Assembly: GCF_016793485.1 (NCBI RefSeq)
Contig: NZ_JAEULZ010000046.1
Coordinates: 248,001 to 312,000 of the forward strand
Direction of reading: 5' to 3'
Source: Mesorhizobium sp.
GTDB taxonomy: Bacteria; Pseudomonadota; Alphaproteobacteria; Rhizobiales; Rhizobiaceae
Length of the DNA: 64,000 nt
The notes below the pieces were generated by a model. That model searched no databases. It saw only the letters and a program-made list of their open reading frames with translations, and was not told the DNA's origin. Of this stretch, positions 48,295 through 58,204 are shown in pieces. Position 1 is the stretch's first letter. The number at the start of each line of letters is the position of its first letter. A program made the translations under genes and the position numbers.

Positions 48295-48361
48295 GGCGAA
48301 TTCACTTGACGGAGTTTTCAGGGCACGCGCGACCGTCGTCCGTCTGCTGGCGGGCGGCGTT

Positions 48362-48461
48362 GCACGGTCTTGCCTGGCCGGTTGACGGCTGGTCGCGCCA
48401 CGCCCGAAGGCGAGTGTGTTGACGCGGCCCCACGGGAGATGTGGTGGCTACTCCCCGATGC
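48362..48461 (-). ncRNA. yybP-ykoY manganese riboswitch in the mntP leader
   Basis: The minus-strand RNA has the hallmarks of this Mn(II) aptamer. A closing stem is formed by GCAUCGG (with one bulged base) at the 5' end and CCGUGC at the 3' end. The invariant loop GGGGAGUAGCC is at 48446-48456, and the second invariant segment CCAGGCAAGACC comes just before the 3' side of the closing stem. Between them a hairpin (CUCGCCUUCGGGCGUG) forms the variable arm. The aptamer ends 67 bases before the mntP ATG, leaving room for an expression platform that could hide the weak ribosome site. Confidence 0.9.
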
Positions 48462-48466
48462 GAGGG

Positions 48467-48495
48467 CAGATATTTTGTGCGCTGCAAAATGTCAA
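48467..48495 (-). promoter_or_regulatory. mntP promoter with inverted repeat in the spacer
   Basis: On the minus strand TTGACA (48490-48495) and TATCTG (48467-48472) are spaced by exactly 17 bases, placing the transcript start at the 5' edge of the riboswitch. The spacer contains ATTTTG-7-CAAAAT (48472-48490, perfect arms), which could bind a metal regulator such as MntR/Mur in addition to the riboswitch. Confidence 0.75.
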
Positions 48496-50098: not shown

Positions 50099-53000
50099 CT
50101 AGTCCGCCAGCACCCGCGTCGAAGGGAACGCAATCTCCACCAGCGTGCCTTCGCCGGGCGTCGAGTGGATCGAGAAGCGGGCGCGGTTCGCCTCGACCAT
50201 TGCCTTGGTCAGCGGCAGGCCGAGCCCGGTGCCGTCGCCGCGGGTCCGTTGCAGCGAATTGATCTGCTTGAACGGCTTCAGCGCCTGCTCGATCTCCGCC
50301 GGCGTCATGCCGACGCCAGTGTCGCGCACCCGCATCACGACCTCGCCATGCGATTCATAGGCGGTCGAGACGATCACCTGGCCGCCTGCCTGCGTGTAGC
50401 GAACGGCGTTCGAGAGGATGTTCAGTGCGATCTGGCGCACGGAGCGAAGGTCGGCGACCACGTCGGGCATCTTCGAGGCGAAGCTTGAGCGGATGATGAC
50501 GCGCTCGCGGTTCGCCTGTGGCTGCATCAGCGCGACCGTCTCGGCCAGCGTCTCGTTCAGCGATACCGCTTCGTAGCTCATCTCCTGCTGGCCCGCCTCG
50601 ATCTTGGAGATGTCGAGCAGATCGTTGACAAGGTCTAGCACATGGCTGCCGGAGCGGTTGATGTCGCGGAGGTAGTCGCGGTAGCGGTCGTTGGCGACAG
50701 GCCCGAACTTCTCGTCCAGCATCAGTTCCGAGAACCCAATGATGGCGTTGAGCGGCGTCCGGATCTCGTGACTCACCCGCGCGAGGAATTCGCTCTTGTG
50801 CGAGGAAGCGCGCTCGGCGCTGGCGCGCGCCTGCGTCAATTCCTCCTCGGCGCGCTTCCATTGCGTGATGTCGCGCACCACTGCGCAGAAGCCGCTGTCG
50901 CCCGGCAGCCTGCCGATCGTCATGAAGAGCGGGATGAAGCGTCCCTCGGCCTCGCGGCCGATCACCTCGCGCCCGTCATTGAGCACGCTCGCCACGCCAT
51001 TGTCGGTCAGGCCGGCGAGATAGTCGCGGGCTGCCTTCTGGCTTTCGATCGCGAACAGCGAACTGAAGGGCTTTCCCGCGACCTCGTCGCTGTCCATGCC
51101 GAACAGCGCTTCCGCCGGGCGGCTGATCGAGCGGATATGCCCGTTCGCGCCGATAAGCACGACGCCGTCGGTCGCCGTGTCGATGATGGTGCGCATCTCG
51201 GCGACGCGCGCCTCCAGTTGCGTGATCAGCGATGTCTGCCCGCCGGCAACGCCGTCCTTTATGCGGGAAAGAACCAGCGCGAGCGCCTTGCCGTTTTCCC
51301 ACGGGATGGACTGCAGGAACGCCTCGACGGGAAACTCTCGGTCGTCCTGCGTCCTGATGCGCATGTGCCGGTCGGTGCGGTTCTGCGGCTCGCCATCTTG
51401 CCCATCCGCGTTTTCGTCCTCGTAGGGATCGACGAAAAGCGCATCGAGCCCGCCCGCCTTGGCAAGCTCGGCGAGCGAGCCGTAGCCGGTCAGGGAGAAG
51501 AATTCCTCGTTGGCGTAATGCAAGATGTCGCCGGAATGAACCAGCACCGGAACCGGAAGTTTTTCGATGATCGACAGCCCGCCGTCACCGGTGGATGCCG
51601 TCTGCGAACCGGATTCTTCCGTCACCGTTTCGAAGTCATCGACGGCGTCGATAGCATTGGGCTCGACAGGCTCGAAATCCGTCTCGGCAAAAAGCGTGTC
51701 CTCGGTATCCGCAGTCTCCGTGGCGGCAGTATCGAACGCTTCATCAGCGTCAGGAGCGTTTGTCGATTCCTCGCGTACCTCGGACGAAATCTCGTCTTCA
51801 GTCGAGCCGGATGCGTCGTCGAGGGCCCCCTCCGGTTCGAACCCTTCTTTCGCGGCTTCGGCCGCTTCCTCCATTTCGACCTGCGCGGCCGCTTCTGCTA
51901 CCCCGTCCTTTTCCCACTTGGCGAAATCGAGCAGCGAGAGCCCGGGCCGCTCGCCCTTGCGCCGTGGCTGCTCTACAGTCGCCTGAGATATGGCTTCTGC
52001 AGCCGGCGACTGCGTGTCGATCTCCGGTACTGACTCGGGCGCTTCGGTGGTCGCGCCGTCGAGTTCCAGCAGTTCGTTTACCGCCTCGACCGCGACGGAG
52101 TCCTCCGCCTCCGATGGCAGCTCGGCCTCGTTGGCAGGAGCGGCGTCAGCCGTTTCGCGCTTCGGCGTTTCGACGGCAGCCTTCTCGTCTTCGCGTCGCG
52201 GGGTCGCGCCTTCTCGCTTCAGCCGGTCGCCGATCTGCTGGAAGGCCATGCGCTCGCCTGGCGAAAGCAGCCTTTCGCTGCCCGGCGGACGCTCCTGCGG
52301 CGGGCGATGTTCGGCGAGCCGAATGACCTTGTCGGATTGCCGACGGTCGGGAACAGGCGTCAGCTCGAGCGCCGGCTTCTCGCCCTGGAACGGATCGGCG
52401 GATTTCTCGCTAGCGGGCTCAATCTCGTCGTTGTCGTTGGTCTCCGCCGAAACGGCTACGTCTTCCGGCGTTACCACCTGTTGGGTAACCGACTCCTCCG
52501 CCAGAGGAATGCTTGGCAAAGCCAGCCCGGTGCCTGCGGGATCGAGGGCGGCTTCCGCCACCCGCGCCACGCCGAAACCGCGAAAACCCTGGAACTCCCT
52601 GCTGCGGTCGTAGACCGGCAGCGCGGCCAGGTCGACCGGAACCCGAAGGTCCGTCTCGGCGATCGGCCACGATACCGTGCGACCTGACCATGTGTCGCGC
52701 CGCGCAAGCAGGCCGGCGATTTCTCCTGTAGGGTCGAGGCCGAATGCGTCGGCCACGTCGCCAAAACGCCGGCCGATGATATCCGCCGCGGCCGCGCCTA
52801 CAGCGCTGGAAAATTCCGCCGAGACCTGGCTGAACCTGCCCTCCGCGTCCGTCCGCCAGACGAAGCGCGCCGGCGCGTCCGTCCGCTTTATGATCGTCCG
52901 TTCGATGGTCGCATGCGGTTGCGGAGCAGGCTGCTCTTCCTCCAGCACATCCTCGACTTCGACTTCCTCGAAACTGGTCGCGTATACCTCGGCGGGAGCC

Positions 53001-53914
53001 TCCGCCTCCGGCAATGTCGCGGCAGCGATGCTCTCGACATCGTCTTGCGCCACGATCTCAGGCTGTATCGCAGCCGTCGGTTCTAGCGCGTCATCTTCAG
53101 CCGGACCCGCTTCGTCGGGTTCGGTCGCCCCTTGGTCCATCGAGGCTTCTGCCACCGTGGCTGGCGCGTCTTCCGTCGACGCAAAACTGTCCCTGCCGAG
53201 CCGCCAGATTTCGCGCACATGATCGACCGGCTCCTCGGCATGCGCGACGTCGTCCTCGTCGTCGGCCCAGTTCTCGTCCACCACGACGACGAGGCTCCGG
53301 CCGTCCGTCAGCCGCGCAAGTCCCGCGGGCAGGGGACCGCGCCGCCCTTCTACCAGTTGCTTCACCACCCGCTGGGCATCGTCCGATTCGCCGACCATCG
53401 CGGCGAGGGTAGTCGCCGACAGCCCCAGGCGCTCGAAGCCCGGTGTGCCCGCCTCGACGGTCCCAGCGGTGTCGATGAACGCGATGAAGTGCCCCGGCTG
53501 GGAGAACCCGCCGATGGCGCGTGGCAGCGCCTTGTCCTGCTCAGCCTCGATTGCCGGTTGCGCCAGCAGGATGGCGATCTCCCCGTCGGGCAGCGTCACC
53601 GTGCTGGCGAGGAAACGCACCGCCTCGCTGGAGACGCCGAGCGTCACGCGCACCAGGAGTGGCTTGTCGCGCCCGATCTGTGGAAAGCCGCGCAGCGCCG
53701 CGATCTGCCGCTTCGCCGCCGCTCCAAGCGGGGCGTTAGCGCCGAAGATCGGCTCGACGTCGTCATGGCCGAAGAGAGCCGCGCCCGGGCCGTTGGCCCA
53801 GATCACTTCCTCGAGGTCGGCCGACAGGATGACCAGAGCGTCGCCGGCGGCGAAGCGCTGGCGCACGACATCCAGTCCGGCAACGTCGAGAAATGAGTAG
53901 GACGCTTGCGCCAT
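50099..53914 (-). CDS. Large PAS sensor histidine kinase, PdhS/CbrA-like
   Basis: A 1271-residue protein with no membrane helix, so probably cytoplasmic. Residues 1-130 and about 340-460 look like PAS-type folds (VILSADLEEVIWANGPGAALFG; RFVWRTDAEGRFSQVSAEF). Residues about 460-780 are acidic, low-complexity and probably disordered. Two PAS domains (LVHSGDILHYANEEFFSLTGY; VVLIGANGHIRSISRPAEALFGM) precede a HisKA domain with His1049 in VSHEIRTPLNAIIGFSELM and a HATPase domain (NILSNAVRYTQAGG, VRDTGVGM, GDGTGLGLPLTKAMVEANRA). The kinase core resembles PdhS of Brucella and CbrA of Sinorhizobium, which act on DivK in cell-cycle control. This assignment is by similarity of the core only. Confidence 0.85.
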   Translation of the reverse strand: MAQASYSFLDVAGLDVVRQRFAAGDALVILSADLEEVIWANGPGAALFGHDDVEPIFGANAPLGAAAKRQIAALRGFPQIGRDKPLLVRVTLGVSSEAVRFLASTVTLPDGEIAILLAQPAIEAEQDKALPRAIGGFSQPGHFIAFIDTAGTVEAGTPGFERLGLSATTLAAMVGESDDAQRVVKQLVEGRRGPLPAGLARLTDGRSLVVVVDENWADDEDDVAHAEEPVDHVREIWRLGRDSFASTEDAPATVAEASMDQGATEPDEAGPAEDDALEPTAAIQPEIVAQDDVESIAAATLPEAEAPAEVYATSFEEVEVEDVLEEEQPAPQPHATIERTIIKRTDAPARFVWRTDAEGRFSQVSAEFSSAVGAAAADIIGRRFGDVADAFGLDPTGEIAGLLARRDTWSGRTVSWPIAETDLRVPVDLAALPVYDRSREFQGFRGFGVARVAEAALDPAGTGLALPSIPLAEESVTQQVVTPEDVAVSAETNDNDEIEPASEKSADPFQGEKPALELTPVPDRRQSDKVIRLAEHRPPQERPPGSERLLSPGERMAFQQIGDRLKREGATPRREDEKAAVETPKRETADAAPANEAELPSEAEDSVAVEAVNELLELDGATTEAPESVPEIDTQSPAAEAISQATVEQPRRKGERPGLSLLDFAKWEKDGVAEAAAQVEMEEAAEAAKEGFEPEGALDDASGSTEDEISSEVREESTNAPDADEAFDTAATETADTEDTLFAETDFEPVEPNAIDAVDDFETVTEESGSQTASTGDGGLSIIEKLPVPVLVHSGDILHYANEEFFSLTGYGSLAELAKAGGLDALFVDPYEDENADGQDGEPQNRTDRHMRIRTQDDREFPVEAFLQSIPWENGKALALVLSRIKDGVAGGQTSLITQLEARVAEMRTIIDTATDGVVLIGANGHIRSISRPAEALFGMDSDEVAGKPFSSLFAIESQKAARDYLAGLTDNGVASVLNDGREVIGREAEGRFIPLFMTIGRLPGDSGFCAVVRDITQWKRAEEELTQARASAERASSHKSEFLARVSHEIRTPLNAIIGFSELMLDEKFGPVANDRYRDYLRDINRSGSHVLDLVNDLLDISKIEAGQQEMSYEAVSLNETLAETVALMQPQANRERVIIRSSFASKMPDVVADLRSVRQIALNILSNAVRYTQAGGQVIVSTAYESHGEVVMRVRDTGVGMTPAEIEQALKPFKQINSLQRTRGDGTGLGLPLTKAMVEANRARFSIHSTPGEGTLVEIAFPSTRVLAD

Positions 53915-54065
53915 GCGGCTCCCGAAACATCAGATCGAAGGGTTTCGAGCGGGAGTCCGCCCTTAACCCTTTATTAATAAAACCGGACCGCAGTGTCCGT
54001 CCACACAGGTGGTGGCTGCAATGCGGCAATTTCGCGGTTTGGTTAATGTTTACAGCCATTTATGG

Positions 54066-54093
54066 TGCGACGCACAAATTTTGTTGCACTGCA
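54066..54093. promoter_or_regulatory. Two TGC-N3-GCA sites, candidate PhaR operators of the phasin gene
   Basis: TGCGACGCA (54066-54074) and TGCACTGCA (54085-54093) have the same TGC-N3-GCA form, with centres 19 bases apart, nearly two helix turns. PhaR, the polyhydroxybutyrate-sensing repressor, recognises TGC/GCA-type repeats before phasin genes in Paracoccus and Rhodobacter. The second site overlaps the predicted -35 box. Confidence 0.65.
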
Positions 54094-54112
54094 CAAGAGA
54101 ATGGTCTATATG
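54084..54112 (+). promoter_or_regulatory. Predicted phasin promoter
   Basis: TTGCAC at 54084-54089 and TATATG at 54107-54112 are spaced by 17 bases, about 60 bases upstream of the phasin ATG at 54171. The -35 box is inside the second TGC-N3-GCA site, which fits repression when PhaR is not bound to polymer. Confidence 0.6.
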
Positions 54113-54170: not shown

Positions 54171-54638
54171 ATGGCCAAGACCGCAGAGAAAGTATCCGCA
54201 GAATTTATCGACAACATCGAGTTTCCGAGCTTCGACGCCTCGAAGGCGACCGACCAGTTCCGCGCCTTCGCCGAGAAGAGCGTCGAGCAGTCGAAGGAAG
54301 CCTACGCGAAGCTGAAGACCGGCGCCGAAGAGACGCAGAAGGCGCTTGAGAGCACCTTCGAGAGCGCCAAGACGGTTTCCAATGACCTCTCTCTCAAGAC
54401 CATTTCCGCCATCCGCGACAACGCCGAAGCCAGCTTCGCTCATCTCGAGGCCCTCATCGGCGCCAAGAGCCTTTCCGAGGTTGTCGAACTCCAGACCTCC
54501 TTCCTGCGCAAGCGCGTCGAGGCCGGTGTCGAGCAGGCCAAGGACTTCCAGTCGGCCGCCAGCAAGGCCGCCGAGAAGGTTTCCGGCCCGATGAAGACGG
54601 TCTTCGAGAAGGCCGTGAAGGAACTCAAGGTCGCCTGA
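54171..54638 (+). CDS. phaP: Phasin family protein
   Basis: A 155-residue, almost fully helical protein of the phasin family: FDASKATDQFRAFAEKSVEQSKEAYAKLKTGAEETQKALE, then SFAHLEALIGAKSLSEVVELQTSFLRKRVEAGVEQAKDFQ and a C-terminal AAEKVSGPMK. Phasins coat polyhydroxyalkanoate granules and control their number and size. No signal peptide is present, as expected for a granule protein. AAAGGACAGG precedes the ATG. The 3' region carries three unusual hairpins (54657-54764), and the promoter has PhaR-like sites. It is divergent from the kinase gene. Confidence 0.93.
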   Translation: MAKTAEKVSAEFIDNIEFPSFDASKATDQFRAFAEKSVEQSKEAYAKLKTGAEETQKALESTFESAKTVSNDLSLKTISAIRDNAEASFAHLEALIGAKSLSEVVELQTSFLRKRVEAGVEQAKDFQSAASKAAEKVSGPMKTVFEKAVKELKVA

Positions 54639-54656
54639 TTGGTGATCTAAAGAATA

Positions 54657-54764
54657 CCGGAAGGCGGCACCTCCTCCCGCTTCCTTCCGGAGTAAAGCCG
54701 GCACCTCCTCCCGCCGGCTCGTAAAAGGAAAAGGCCGGCACCTCCTCCCGCCGGCCTTTTTCTT
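54657..54764 (+). ncRNA. Array of three CCUCCUCCC-loop hairpins in the phasin 3' region (cuckoo-type sRNA candidate)
   Basis: Three hairpins in tandem share the 16-base core CGGCACCTCCTCCCGC at 54665-54680, 54699-54714 and 54736-54751. Stems are CCGGAAGG/CCTTCCGG (54657-54690), AGCCGG/CCGGCT (54696-54719) and AAGGCCGG/CCGGCCTT (54731-54758); the last is followed by TTTTTCTT and is an intrinsic terminator. The stems differ in sequence while the loops stay identical, so the loop sequence is what is kept. CCUCCUCCC resembles the anti-Shine-Dalgarno end of 16S rRNA and is the hallmark of the CcsR/cuckoo RNAs of Alphaproteobacteria. The array begins 19 bases behind the phasin stop, so it is probably cut from or co-transcribed with phasin mRNA. 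Confidence 0.85.
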
Positions 54765-55028
54765 GTTCACTTGGCTGCTACGGTGCGAAACCACGGCGAC
54801 CGGTTCTGGCGGGCGACGCTGCGCTTGGAGGCTTTCCCGAGGTCGCGCCCGCCGCAGTCGGCGGCAAGGTTCCTGGATCGGAAGCCCGCAAAGCCTTTCT
54901 CCCGATAGCGGATTTCCCCGTGACGACGAATCCTGGCGGTTGGATCGCGAACGGGGTTGAATTAAGATGCGATAGCCCGTATGCACCGCTCGCCGACAGG
55001 CAGGCCCTTCGCGGGCTGGCGTTGCTGT
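54765..55028. other. Intergenic region before tRNA-His
   Basis: I see no gene, repeat or clear promoter here. A short plus-strand open frame from 54763 begins inside the terminator and has no ribosome site. The promoter of the tRNA must lie in the last 100 bases, but I cannot point to its boxes with confidence. Confidence 0.5.
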
Positions 55029-55105
55029 GCCGTTGTAGCTCAGTTGGTTAGAGCGCCGGATTGTGGATCCGGAGGTCGCTGGTTCGAGCCCAGCCAACGG
55101 TACCA
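55029..55105 (+). tRNA. tRNA-His (GTG), alphaproteobacterial type with A73 and no G-1
   Basis: The 77 bases fold into a full cloverleaf: acceptor GCCGTTG with CAACGGT, D arm GCTC/GAGC, anticodon arm CCGGA/TCCGG with loop TTGTGGA (anticodon GTG), and T arm GCTGG/CCAGC with TTCGAGC. CCA is encoded. The first base pairs as G1-U72, the discriminator is A73, and there is no partner for an extra G-1; in most bacteria tRNA-His has G-1 paired with C73. The unusual form is known from Caulobacter and relatives. Confidence 0.96.
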
Positions 55106-55285: not shown

Positions 55286-55291
55286 ATGGCA

Positions 55292-55420
55292 GTGCAAACG
55301 ATGAAACGCGCCTACGAGAAGCCGATCCTGATGCGCTCGACAATTCTGTTGCAGTCGGTGACCGCGCAAAACATGTCTGAAATCCCGGCTACGACCGACG
55401 GAAGCGGCGGCGCAGGCTGA
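55292..55420 (+). CDS. Small ORF with YxxPxL leader-like motif, possible RiPP precursor
   Basis: GGAGG at 55281-55285 is followed six bases later by GTG at 55292, opening a 42-residue frame that ends TGA at 55418-55420; ATG at 55301 gives 39 residues. The N-terminus reads KRAYEKPILMRS, and the rest is SVTAQNMSEIPATTDGSGGAG-like, small and polar with a Gly-rich end. A Lys-rich start with YxxPxL is the recognition motif of lasso-peptide leaders and of small orphan proteins often labelled putative RiPP precursor in Rhizobiales. No cyclase, protease or transporter gene is adjacent. It lies between tRNA-His and the 3' end of the convergent GT29 fusion gene. Confidence 0.5.
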   Translation: MQTMKRAYEKPILMRSTILLQSVTAQNMSEIPATTDGSGGAG

Positions 55421-55479: not shown

Positions 55480-56685
55480 TCAGAGTGTGTGCAATACGAA
55501 CCGGTCGTCTCTGCGGCAAAGGTGAGAAACGAACTCTCTCTCCGCGCTGAAATTGTGGTCGGCGGTCTCCGCTGTCGCGTGTCCGGACAGCGACCGGCTT
55601 TTGAAAAAATCGAAACCGTAAATATCGACCCGACCGCATTGAGAGATCGACAGCAGGTCGAGCAAGATCAGGCCGCTCGATGGGCGACGCCCCAGCAATT
55701 TTGTAAGCCTGTGGTGGTTTTGCCGCGGCTCCAGGAACAGGCTTCTGTCCCTGACCATGGATGGCGTCAGTTCCCGCCGAAAAGGTGAAAGCCAGAGCAC
55801 TCTTTTAACACCACGGCGCTTGATGAAGCCGTCGTCGAGGGCAATTCCCGTAGCGATCCAGTCTGTCCTCGTGCCGGAACTCTGCACACTGAAGATCGGC
55901 GCTTTGTTGAACCTGACAACCAGATCGTGGGAATCTATCTCCTGCCCGTGGTTTCCCGCGCCCAGTGACCGGGCATTGCCAACCACGGATATCGATTTCC
56001 CCCTGACCTCACCGAAGAGATCACCTTGTGACGCATACCGGCCCAGACAGGCTTTCGTCGTGCTGGCCAATGTAGCGAAAAGCGGCCATGTGGCAGCTTT
56101 GAGTTTCTTGATTTTCCGGCGTTTTAACGAACCGCCATCAACTTTGCGTAACCTCCGCCGGGCTGCCGTTGCCAGCGGCCACGTTATGAATGAGCAGGTA
56201 TCCGGCACGGTGAGTGGAATCTTCTCGACATGTTCGAAATGAGCACCAACGCGCGCTTGCCACCATTCATCCGGCCGAACGGTGCAATGTGCGTTCTGCC
56301 CGTTCGATAGCAAAGTGTCCGCATAGCGCGTCGAAATGACAAAAAAGCACTTGTGCGATAGGGACGACATATCGGCAAGGACGGCGTCCAGATCAGGCTC
56401 CGGGATGTGCTCTAGGACATCAGTGCTGACCAGCAGATCGAAACGACCGCGTGGCCTGTCGGAAAACTCATGAACGTATGGGTCATAGCAGCAGACATCG
56501 ATCCCGGTGCGGGCAATCGCTTTCCCTAAAGTGCCCTTGCCGCAACCGTAGTCGATCAAGCGCTGATAGCCGATGGAAAGGCCCATGATCTCTGCGTAAC
56601 GCGCGAGCTTCACGCTTGCGACACCATAGCCTTCCTGCCGTGCATGGATGTCTTGGTACTGCGATGCAAAATCAGTCATGAGCAC
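55480..56685 (-). CDS. Fusion of SAM methyltransferase and GT29 (sialyltransferase-type) domain
   Basis: A 401-residue cytoplasmic protein. Residues about 35-165 are a class I methyltransferase: motif I LIDYGCGKGTLG (43-54) and FDLLVSTDVLEHIPEP (82-97). Residues about 228-395 are a GT29 domain. Sialylmotif L is VVGNARSLGAGNHGQEIDSH (234-253), continuing into RFNKAP and GTRTDW; sialylmotif S is PSSGLILLDLL (335-345) with YGFDF; motif VS (HX4E) is HNFSAE (377-382). GT29 is the eukaryotic-type sialyltransferase family using CMP-sugars. It is the last gene of a minus-strand operon with three GT25 genes. No CMP-sialate synthesis gene is in the window, so the donor could be CMP-Kdo or another CMP-sugar. 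G+C is lower than in the flanks. Confidence 0.85.
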   Translation of the reverse strand: MLMTDFASQYQDIHARQEGYGVASVKLARYAEIMGLSIGYQRLIDYGCGKGTLGKAIARTGIDVCCYDPYVHEFSDRPRGRFDLLVSTDVLEHIPEPDLDAVLADMSSLSHKCFFVISTRYADTLLSNGQNAHCTVRPDEWWQARVGAHFEHVEKIPLTVPDTCSFITWPLATAARRRLRKVDGGSLKRRKIKKLKAATWPLFATLASTTKACLGRYASQGDLFGEVRGKSISVVGNARSLGAGNHGQEIDSHDLVVRFNKAPIFSVQSSGTRTDWIATGIALDDGFIKRRGVKRVLWLSPFRRELTPSMVRDRSLFLEPRQNHHRLTKLLGRRPSSGLILLDLLSISQCGRVDIYGFDFFKSRSLSGHATAETADHNFSAEREFVSHLCRRDDRFVLHTL

Positions 56686-56721
56686 ACCTACGACAAGGCG
56701 ATGCGTCGGTCCGCCAGTGTG

Positions 56722-57456
56722 TCATCTGAAACCGACACGAACGCGCCGTGTCTTCGAAGGCAGCAACCCCAGCAGTTGGCGCCCCAGCCTTCGAGCCTCT
56801 CGCGCAAGCTTGGCGCCTGGACTCAAGGCATGACTTTGAACCTGCGTCTCCTCTTCTCTCTCAATCGTCAGTCCAAAACTGGGTGAACATGTCAATTTAT
56901 CTTGGATGCTAAGCGCAGGCAGAAGTTTGTAAATCGCCAGTTCTGGAAGCGATCTATTGAACAATATCTGGTCGAACTCGACGTCGATGGTTTTGAGGTC
57001 AATTAGCAACTTGGCGGCGCATGCTCGGGATATGACATAGCAGCCGGTTCCAGTTCCGCCCCCCAGGGTCCTAACGAGTTTTCGTCCCATGGCATATCGC
57101 ACTCGCCCGGACACGGTGACCAGCGTCTGAGTTCGTTCGGCGTGGATGATGTCGGCGTCATCCGGTATCCACGATTCATCTGAGAGAAATTTTGGAATTT
57201 CGGGACTCAAATGAGCGTCATCTTCAAGGACGAGTACGAACCTTTCTTTGCCCTCAGCGACTGTGGACCAGACAGCCCTGTGGCTTAGAAAACAGCCAAC
57301 TGCTCCCAAGCTGATGTCAGGGAAAGGATTGCGCTCGAGGGTAGTGCCGTCGACAGCTGCAAACCTCTCGATGGAAATTCCAAGGCTTCTTGCCTGCGCT
57401 TCCATCCAGTCGCGTCTTTCCGTCGAACGGTCAAGGTTGATGTAGATAGCGCGCAC
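56722..57456 (-). CDS. GT25-family (LgtB/LpsA-like) glycosyltransferase, copy C
   Basis: A 244-residue GT25 protein, the type that adds galactose or glucose to lipooligosaccharide. The N-terminal motif RAIYINLDRSTERRDWMEAQ, the switch region LGAVGCFLSHRAVW and the acidic motif LVLEDDAHLSPEI are all present, and GTGCYVISRACAAKLL follows. It shares its layout with the next upstream gene (RALYINLDRSPERRQW..., also ending RVRVGFR or RIRVGFR), so the two are recent paralogs. It lies four bases behind that gene and 36 bases before the GT29 fusion gene. Two sampled lines within it (56881-57000) have 45% G+C, well below the window's usual level. Confidence 0.88.
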   Translation of the reverse strand: MRAIYINLDRSTERRDWMEAQARSLGISIERFAAVDGTTLERNPFPDISLGAVGCFLSHRAVWSTVAEGKERFVLVLEDDAHLSPEIPKFLSDESWIPDDADIIHAERTQTLVTVSGRVRYAMGRKLVRTLGGGTGTGCYVISRACAAKLLIDLKTIDVEFDQILFNRSLPELAIYKLLPALSIQDKLTCSPSFGLTIEREEETQVQSHALSPGAKLAREARRLGRQLLGLLPSKTRRVRVGFR

Positions 57457-57460
57457 GGAA

Positions 57461-58204
57461 CTACCGAAACCCCACCCTTATGCGCACAGGAGCTTTGAGT
57501 CCCAGAGTGGCTGTGATGCCTCGCTTCAGCTTGCCGATCTGACGCGCGACCTCGCGGCGAAGCTTGCCGTCAAGCGGTTTAGGGCGTGGCCGTCTTTCGA
57601 TCTGACTCGTGAAGATGGGAGCTTCCAGAAACTCGTCCTGGATGCAGAGCGCCGGCTCGACTTTGTAGATATTGAGGTTCAGGACATTCCGGTCGAGCAG
57701 TGCGAGGTCGAATTCTTCCGCGACCTCGGTGAAGTCTTCGATCAGGCGCTGGGCGCAGGCCCTTGAGATCAAATAGCCGCCGGTTCCGGAATTTTCCGAT
57801 ATTGTCTTGTAGAGCTTGCGACCGAAGACTTTGCTGCCCCTGTTTATGACCATGCAGCGCTCGCGCACACGTTCGATATGCACGATGTCCGCATCATCAG
57901 GGATCCACGACGTGTCGGCCAGAAAACGCGGCAGATCGGGGCTCATATGCACATCGTCTTCGAAGATCGCGGCGTAGCGATCCTCGCCGCTGACGACCAT
58001 GTCCCAAGCCTTGCGGTGGCTGTGGAAACAGGCGAGCGCGCCGGCCGACAGGCCAGCCGGCCCGGCGCACGGCATCGCGCCGTCCAGTGCAGCACCGTCG
58101 ATCGCGGCGATCCGTTCAACGGCCAGTCCGAGCGCCGCAGCCTGTTGCTCGATCCACTGCCTCCGTTCTGGCGACCTGTCGAGATTGATGTAGAGCGCGC
58201 GCAC
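57461..58204 (-). CDS. GT25-family glycosyltransferase, copy B
   Basis: A 247-residue paralog with the same motifs: RALYINLDRSPERRQWIEQQ at the start, AGALACFHSHRKAWDMVV, the acidic motif AIFEDDVHMSPDL, then WIPDDADIVHIERV and GTGGYLISRACAQRLIED. The C-terminal 40 residues are basic (RPRPKPLDGKLRREVARQIGKLKRG) and probably lie on the membrane surface. It starts ten bases behind copy A and ends four bases before copy C, so translation is likely coupled. Acceptor and sugar are unknown; GT25 enzymes of this type often add beta-linked galactose to outer-membrane oligosaccharides. Confidence 0.88.
   Translation of the reverse strand: MRALYINLDRSPERRQWIEQQAAALGLAVERIAAIDGAALDGAMPCAGPAGLSAGALACFHSHRKAWDMVVSGEDRYAAIFEDDVHMSPDLPRFLADTSWIPDDADIVHIERVRERCMVINRGSKVFGRKLYKTISENSGTGGYLISRACAQRLIEDFTEVAEEFDLALLDRNVLNLNIYKVEPALCIQDEFLEAPIFTSQIERRPRPKPLDGKLRREVARQIGKLKRGITATLGLKAPVRIRVGFR

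Follow-up and report, generated by a model that had tools for sequence, protein, structure and literature searches.

An ar14-family RNA array with three anti-Shine-Dalgarno loops behind a phasin gene of Mesorhizobium sp. and its relatives

Three hairpins with the same loop lie directly behind a phasin stop codon in Mesorhizobium sp., which raises the question of what they are and whether they belong to the gene in front of them. We analyzed the window, a 64-kb stretch of DNA in which the phasin gene occupies positions 54171–54638 of the + strand and encodes a protein of 155 amino acids; the protein matches Pfam Phasin_2 and passes the NCBIfam model TIGR01985 (137.5 bits against a cut-off of 99.7). 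The gap between the phasin stop and the array is 13 nt, so that the array begins 14 nt behind the stop. A string search located CCTCCTCCC three times within 80 nt of the + strand, at 54670–54678, 54704–54712 and 54741–54749, and nowhere else in the 64-kb window; shuffled windows held 0.48 copies on average, and three copies were reached in 0 of 100 shuffles. The repeat finder returned three in-register 20-nt copies containing CGGCACCTCCTCCCGC.

RNA folding, proposed as a check in an earlier sequence-only reading of this DNA, gave three hairpins for 54652–54766 with an energy of −56.5 kcal/mol (z = −6.2 versus 200 shuffles), and the CCTCCTCCC/CCUCCUCCC motif was unpaired in each of them. Hairpins 1 (54657–54690), 2 (54696–54719) and 3 (54725–54764), all on the + strand and all found by motif search and folding, carry CCUCCUCCC at the three positions given above. 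Three copies and three folded hairpins show that the identical loops on three differing stems behind the phasin stop, as described in that reading, are real. The loop had been given as 12 bases long, but its outer C and G pair, so that the unpaired part is 10 nt, ACCUCCUCCC. Hairpin 3 has a 15-bp stem with a U-rich run at the end of its 3' arm and is likely the terminator shared by the phasin gene and the array. It did not appear in the output of the terminator scan, which permits loops of 3–8 only.

Several other features surround the locus. A divergent 1271-aa PAS histidine kinase (50099–53914) adjoins the phasin gene, and a manganese riboswitch (yybP-ykoY, RF00080) lies on the − strand at 48338–48477. 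A tRNA (55029–55102, + strand, RF00005), whose anticodon GTG for histidine was read from the sequence, is a conserved neighbor of the array. A 44-aa open reading frame with a good ribosome site (MAVQTMKRAYEKPILMRSTILLQSVTAQNMSEIPATTDGSGGAG) follows at 55286–55420; it had no match in Pfam or NCBIfam, and we take it to resemble a small modified-peptide precursor. The − strand of 55480–58204 encodes two family 25 glycosyltransferases side by side, together with a protein in which a methyltransferase domain is fused to a sialyltransferase-like part (family 29).

Comparison with the Rfam covariance models identified the array. The best families for the stretch were ar14, CcsR1 and ar7. The ar14 model (RF02344) matched 54652–54763 on the + strand over its full length (model positions 1–123) with 67.1 bits, above its gathering threshold of 58.8, whereas CcsR1 (RF02791), the type to which the array had been likened from its letters, fell far short with 29.2 against 65.3. 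In the available parts of the published descriptions, ar14 RNAs consist of three hairpins with CCUCCUCCC/anti-Shine-Dalgarno sequences in their loops and highly different stems (PMC10746234, PMC7143759), and families with three and with four such hairpins are described in section 2.7 of another paper (PMC3927594). Both traits are found here: the array has three hairpins, each with an unpaired CCUCCUCCC, and the arrays of relatives have stems that differ in sequence yet remain paired. The segment 54652–54763 is a member of the known ar14/NfeR1 family. Because the family's published description is precisely this, three hairpins whose CCUCCUCCC loops are identical and whose stems differ, the loops themselves are not new, and the three-loop form, which had been regarded as unusual, is the normal form of ar14 and not an oddity. 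Over the whole genome, CCTCCTCCC occurs at 43 places against 50 for the reversed string, and thus is not enriched; only its clustering in hairpins is special, not its genome-wide frequency.

The claim that covariation protects both hairpin form and loop sequence cannot be judged from one sequence, and the arrays of relatives upheld it. The covariation alignment contained 37 of the 42 extracted arrays; four near-copies (L057, L068, L069 and L100) and one array with an irregular middle hairpin (G063) were left out. In 18 of the 25 consensus pairs, at least one sequence was changed on both sides with the pair kept. Some pairs of hairpin 1 were broken in up to 11 of the 37 rows of this alignment, which was built on sequence only. 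The partial arrays of seven survey genomes and that of G090 are also outside the array list, and the pairing percentages are therefore favorable. When 3' arms were swapped between taxa, the mean energy changed from −18.1 to −12.3 kcal/mol for hairpin 1, from −13.5 to −9.4 for hairpin 2 and from −16.8 to −11.1 for hairpin 3, and the swapped arm folded better than the hairpin's own in 13%, 14% and 5% of swaps, respectively. As far as these alignments and folds indicate, the stems co-vary around constant loops. In the folds of the genus survey described below, an exact CCTCCTCCC remained in 26 of 28 cases for hairpin 1, in 22 of 29 for hairpin 2 and in 13 of 29 for hairpin 3, in a tally made by hand and confirmed by a string count. 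Loop 1 is the most constant and the terminator loop the least; several genomes have lost loops 2 and 3 with the hairpins still in place.

The array accompanies the phasin gene throughout the close relatives. From 104 related phasin loci we took the best 80; one of these ends too early, leaving 79 informative loci. Inspection of their phasin downstream regions, which the sequence-only reading had recommended, revealed motif hairpins behind the phasin in 79 of 79, with at least one exact CCTCCTCCC within 300 nt of the stop in every case (68 loci have three copies, 9 have two and 2 have one). Among 20 related loci, the ar14 model scored above its gathering threshold in 18, and a tRNA lay downstream in 19. 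Loop 1 stands at least 90 nt behind the phasin stop in 54 of the 79 named loci, mostly in Mesorhizobium. In many of the loci listed, this long spacer (3445–3530 in L040, for example) includes a conserved GATGCAACAAAAGGTCGCATTT or a close variant, and it could contain a processing site or a promoter of an unusual kind.

So that Mesorhizobium would not be counted over and over, we surveyed 101 genomes from 100 genera of the window's family. TIGR01985 matched in 79 of them, and 74 were examined, the five with only weak matches being left out. Motif hairpins stood behind the phasin in 29 of the 74 genomes, which amounts to 28 of 73 genera, the window's genus being represented by two genomes; an exact CCTCCTCCC occurred at least once in 27 of these 29. 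Two or three motif loops were present in 21 survey genomes and fewer loops or near-motifs in 8; G090 has one motif loop, and the rows scored as being without an array include decayed remnants (G033, G058 and G089). In a phasin tree of 79 rows (the 74 best phasins and five paralogues), all 29 array genomes fell in one group of 43 rows and none among the 36 rows outside; the support of this group is 92/93, below the starred level, and the tree is midpoint-rooted with many unresolved forks. In other families of the order, none of the 28 phasins with loci (68 genomes matched, members of the window's own family included) had an array, and neither CCTCCTCC nor CTCCTCCC occurred within 300 nt. The proposed phasin linkage is thus conserved in related genomes but not general, being confined, in the samples taken, to one phasin group within the family. 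This distribution fits one probable origin in the lineage followed by decay. As side observations, a shorter TTCCTCCC lies near the phasin stop in three of the 28 other-family phasins (L283, L299 and L308), and many phasins outside the array group carry a plain terminator-like inverted repeat in place of the array.

The region upstream of the phasin gene bears on how the transcript may be controlled. The likely phasin promoter lies at 54083–54111 on the + strand, with GTTGCA at 54083–54088 and CTATAT at 54106–54111 separated by 17 nt; it is sigma70-like, with 9 of 12 matches to CTTGAC-N17-CTATAT. A scan for E. coli-type promoters reported none at this place. Two + strand sites, TGCGACGCA at 54066–54074 and TGCACTGCA at 54085–54093, the latter overlapping the −35 element, match YGCRNYGCR, the core of the S. 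meliloti motif for PhaR, a PHB sensor, so that the core marking the PhaR regulon is found at the promoter; a script search with the same pattern found a third match at 54017. Within 160 nt upstream of the phasin, PhaR-like sites were present in 77 of 77 relatives (two in 76 and three in one), while a control window further upstream had any such site in only 2 of 77, the core alone being used in this test without its AT-rich arms. This test and that of synonymous variation covered 77 of the 80 loci, since the script found no start in L084, L089 and L110. PhaR and PHB synthase genes each have one match in the window's genome. In S. meliloti, according to the available part of the source, the PhaR motif occurs in two copies in the phaP1 promoter (PMC12542648), and PhaR is described as a repressor of phaP1.

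The promoter score upstream of the phasin was 8 or 9 of 12 in 71 of the 79 loci. In the 90 nt before the array, the best match was at most 8 of 12 in all 79 loci, and 8 was reached in 5. These matches were no better than shuffled sequence; shuffles, built from the pre-array stretch only, reached 8 or 9 in 25 of 79, and a score of 8 alone is therefore weak. The case for the phasin promoter is made by its constant sequence and 17-nt spacing, seen in the eleven loci listed with the exception of L117, which has none in the stretch tested. Promoter scans of the window, L040 and L048 found none before the array. The sigma70 promoter of NfeR1, CTTAGAC-N17-CTATAT, has no counterpart before the array that is better than shuffled sequence; such a promoter is a trait of NfeR1 and not of every ar14 copy. 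The phasin gene shows a slight dip in synonymous variation close to its 3' end, with similar dips in other parts of the gene. A promoter of its own inside the phasin gene or the spacer was set aside, as neither synonymous variation, consensus scans nor the scored alphaproteobacterial promoter supported one. The origin from a 3' UTR that had been suggested from the letters fits with no sign of a separate promoter, and a single phasin–ar14 transcript ended by hairpin 3 would be the simplest reading.

Our analysis of predicted targets followed a further proposal of the sequence-only reading, and the proposed equivalence of the loop to an anti-Shine-Dalgarno string was supported. The complement GGGAGGAG, followed by an ATG at 3–9 nt, occurs at 29 sites in the genome, against 7 for the reversed pattern, the start codons being putative. 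Twenty-five of the 29 sites were scanned for protein families, the other four having open reading frames of 2–54 aa. Parts of ABC transporters account for 11 of the 29 (three ATPases, five Peripla_BP_4 binding proteins and three permeases), and the other families include Dak1, ROK, SGL, aldo/keto reductase and acyl-CoA dehydrogenase. The genome as a whole matches Peripla_BP_4 50 times, and the chance of finding 5 among 29 sites is about 1e-5, a value resting on a guessed number of about 5000 genes. Another strong ribosome site, AAGGAGGT, served as control: it was present at 17 sites, and a scan of the 8 that have an open reading frame of at least 60 aa showed one transporter part, an ABC-2 membrane protein; the ABC share of 11/29 versus 1/17 differs with a Fisher p of 0.03, given that the control is small. 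Since the ar14 copies of the genome share the loop, it is impossible to assign targets to copies, and the target set is that of the loop.

Ten candidate targets had computed loop pairings of −15.5 to −19.7 kcal/mol, compared with −5.5 for the phasin start, which is close to the median of the 45 open reading frames of the window (−5.6). In 77 relatives, pairing of the phasin start averaged −6.8 kcal/mol (range −10.2 to −3.0). Self-control of the phasin by its own loops was accordingly rejected as the main idea, the start region pairing only averagely; because of this weak pairing, the phasin would escape its own RNA.

The ar14 model matched six places in the window's genome, four of them above the cut-off; the phasin copy thus has five companions, three above the cut-off, which would make it partly redundant. 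A tandem ar14 pair at 1353–1778 of L002 (G000, contig 18) immediately follows a 46-aa DUF1127 gene; one PhaR-like site lies upstream, and the layout resembles that of Rhodobacter ccaF1–CcsR. A degenerate copy without an exact CCTCCTCCC follows a second DUF1127 gene (L005, 1501–1757), and the copy in L003 has no DUF1127-like gene in the preceding 420 nt. The match in L006, at 32.7 bits below the cut-off and without CCTCCTCCC, is probably due to chance.

In other genera, 8 of 30 ar14 loci sit behind a DUF1127-like reading frame. Of the 30 ar14 genes from other genera (L148–L177), 22, among them some DUF1127-linked ones, have the stricter PhaR-like pattern TGCRNYGCA in the 350 nt before them, compared with 7 of 30 downstream of ar14 and 4 of 92 flanks of other genes; these 30 loci are the best-scoring and not a random set, and the flanks are both sides of 46 loci in one genome, that of the window. 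For the looser YGCRNYGCR, the figures were 27 of 30 on the upstream side, 11 of 30 on the downstream side and 26 of the 92 flanks. A regulator other than PhaR may read these sites, since some of the TGCRNYGCA matches lie near the place of the LsrB site, given as TGCA-N6-GCAT in the available part of its description.

The nearest known systems differ from the phasin array in informative ways. NfeR1 (Smr14C2) of Sinorhizobium meliloti likewise has three hairpins, unpaired CCUCCUCCC and hypervariable stems, with a length of 123 nt in S. meliloti as far as its description was available, against a 112-nt match in the window. According to the available text, its three loops act redundantly on the ribosome sites of mRNAs and thereby silence them; ABC transport systems make up most of the predicted targets, reporter assays confirmed two of these systems, and ntrBC followed later (PMC10746234). 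It is tied to nitrogen stress, salt shock and symbiosis (PMC10746234, PMC7143759). In contrast to the phasin array, which has no recognizable promoter, NfeR1 is described as having its own sigma70 promoter, activated by LsrB and repressed by NtrC (PMC10746234).

CcsR1–4 of Rhodobacter sphaeroides (RF02791; CIN1 locus), which stands behind ccaF1 (DUF1127), shares the loop motif and, in the parts of its description available, the location of the RNA in a 3' UTR, but has two loops and another host gene, DUF1127 instead of phasin. The array likewise follows directly on a protein gene, in the position of a 3' UTR; the likeness is one of layout only, with phasin in place of DUF1127. We take RS0680a to be the CcsR1–4 RNA. 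RS0680a is given two loops in the available part of PMC3927594, and ccaF1–CcsR1–4 is described as a processed gene-plus-RNA transcript matured with RNase E (PMC8625941, PMC10253847). MmgR (alpha-r8) of S. meliloti is a small RNA tied to PHB and phasins and repressed by PhaR/AniA, but it belongs to another family, is 77 nt long, has its anti-Shine-Dalgarno motif in the first loop, and is not placed behind a phasin in the available part of its description (PMC7143759). We set this identity aside, the best families being ar14, CcsR1 and ar7 and the architecture of MmgR being different (PMC7143759).

In the literature searched, which did not extend to the CcaF1 paper and the cuckoo-RNA paper of 2015, we found no description of an ar14 RNA, or any other RNA with CCUCCUCCC, downstream of a phasin gene; PMC3927594, PMC10746234 and PMC5596092 do not contain the word phasin. 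The linkage may already be in print, for example in the cuckoo-RNA work of Reinkensmeier and Giegerich (2015). The feature is real and its family known; as far as the literature searched is concerned, the new element is the conserved phasin host gene.

We consider it most probable, at about 0.58, that the array is a PHB-controlled, 3'-UTR-derived ar14 RNA of the phasin mRNA that silences uptake genes, for which we infer a shared transcript, cleavage, stability, silencing and PHB control. Transcription would start at a PhaR-repressed phasin promoter, the mRNA would be translated into phasin, and the transcript would end at hairpin 3. Cleavage of the mRNA by a nuclease, possibly RNase E by analogy with ccaF1–CcsR, would then release the part with the three hairpins. 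Through its exposed CCUCCUCCC loops this RNA would base-pair with strong Shine-Dalgarno sequences of the GGGAGGAG type, many of which belong to ABC systems for nutrient uptake, and silence these genes, while the weak Shine-Dalgarno of the phasin itself would be spared. PHB granules hold PhaR once the polymer accumulates, and the storage of carbon would thereby lower any further uptake. The long spacer, which is the commoner form (54 of 79 named loci), the lost loops 2 and 3, the broken pairs of hairpin 1, the 5–14% of swapped arms that fold better, the slight dip in synonymous variation and the partial redundancy with five other ar14 matches count against this explanation.

The same long spacer would suit a small RNA that is independent of the phasin and transcribed from a promoter within the spacer or the last part of the phasin gene, its linkage to the phasin being mere neighborhood. 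NfeR1 of S. meliloti is such an RNA in the available account of its sigma70 promoter (PMC10746234), and the slight dip in synonymous variation near the phasin 3' end points the same way. We find this doubtful, however: only 13 nt separate the stop from the array in the window, the 90 nt before the array are no better than shuffled sequence in 79 loci and the scans of the window, L040 and L048 were negative, and the linkage is kept in 29 of 74 survey genomes.

That hairpins outlast loops, the exact CCTCCTCCC being kept in 26/28, 22/29 and 13/29 of hairpins 1, 2 and 3, would also be expected if the array were mainly a terminator and 3' stabilizer of the phasin mRNA with loops left over from an old ar14 insertion, and many phasins outside the group do have a plain terminator-like inverted repeat. 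Such a function needs no loop sequence, yet loop 1 is kept in 26 of 28 despite its changing stem, and the stems appear to co-vary around constant loops; we judge this account unlikely. The loops contain CACCUCCU, like the 16S rRNA tail. Still attached to the phasin mRNA, they might act as a decoy that competes broadly with ribosomes for Shine-Dalgarno sequences. Both the sequence of the loops and their weak pairing with the start region of their own phasin would speak for this. Such a decoy is very improbable, as NfeR1 acts on particular mRNAs in the available account (PMC10746234) and the strongest complements in the genome are rich in one functional class. Hence a silencing RNA derived from the phasin mRNA remains our preferred reading.

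Our results suggest, tentatively and with rather less assurance than the reading of the locus itself, that in Mesorhizobium-like bacteria one PhaR-repressed transcript yields both a coat protein of PHB granules and a triple-loop ar14 RNA lowering the uptake of sugars and other ABC substrates. The ar14 family as a whole may belong to the PHB regulon, since TGCRNYGCA lies upstream of 22 of the 30 ar14 genes from other genera. If true, RNAs of the anti-Shine-Dalgarno kind would have become established at the 3' ends of genes for unrelated proteins, DUF1127 and phasin. The phasin array would then provide a direct physical link between carbon storage and the post-transcriptional control of nutrient uptake, and would constitute a storage-sensing negative feedback on carbon intake.
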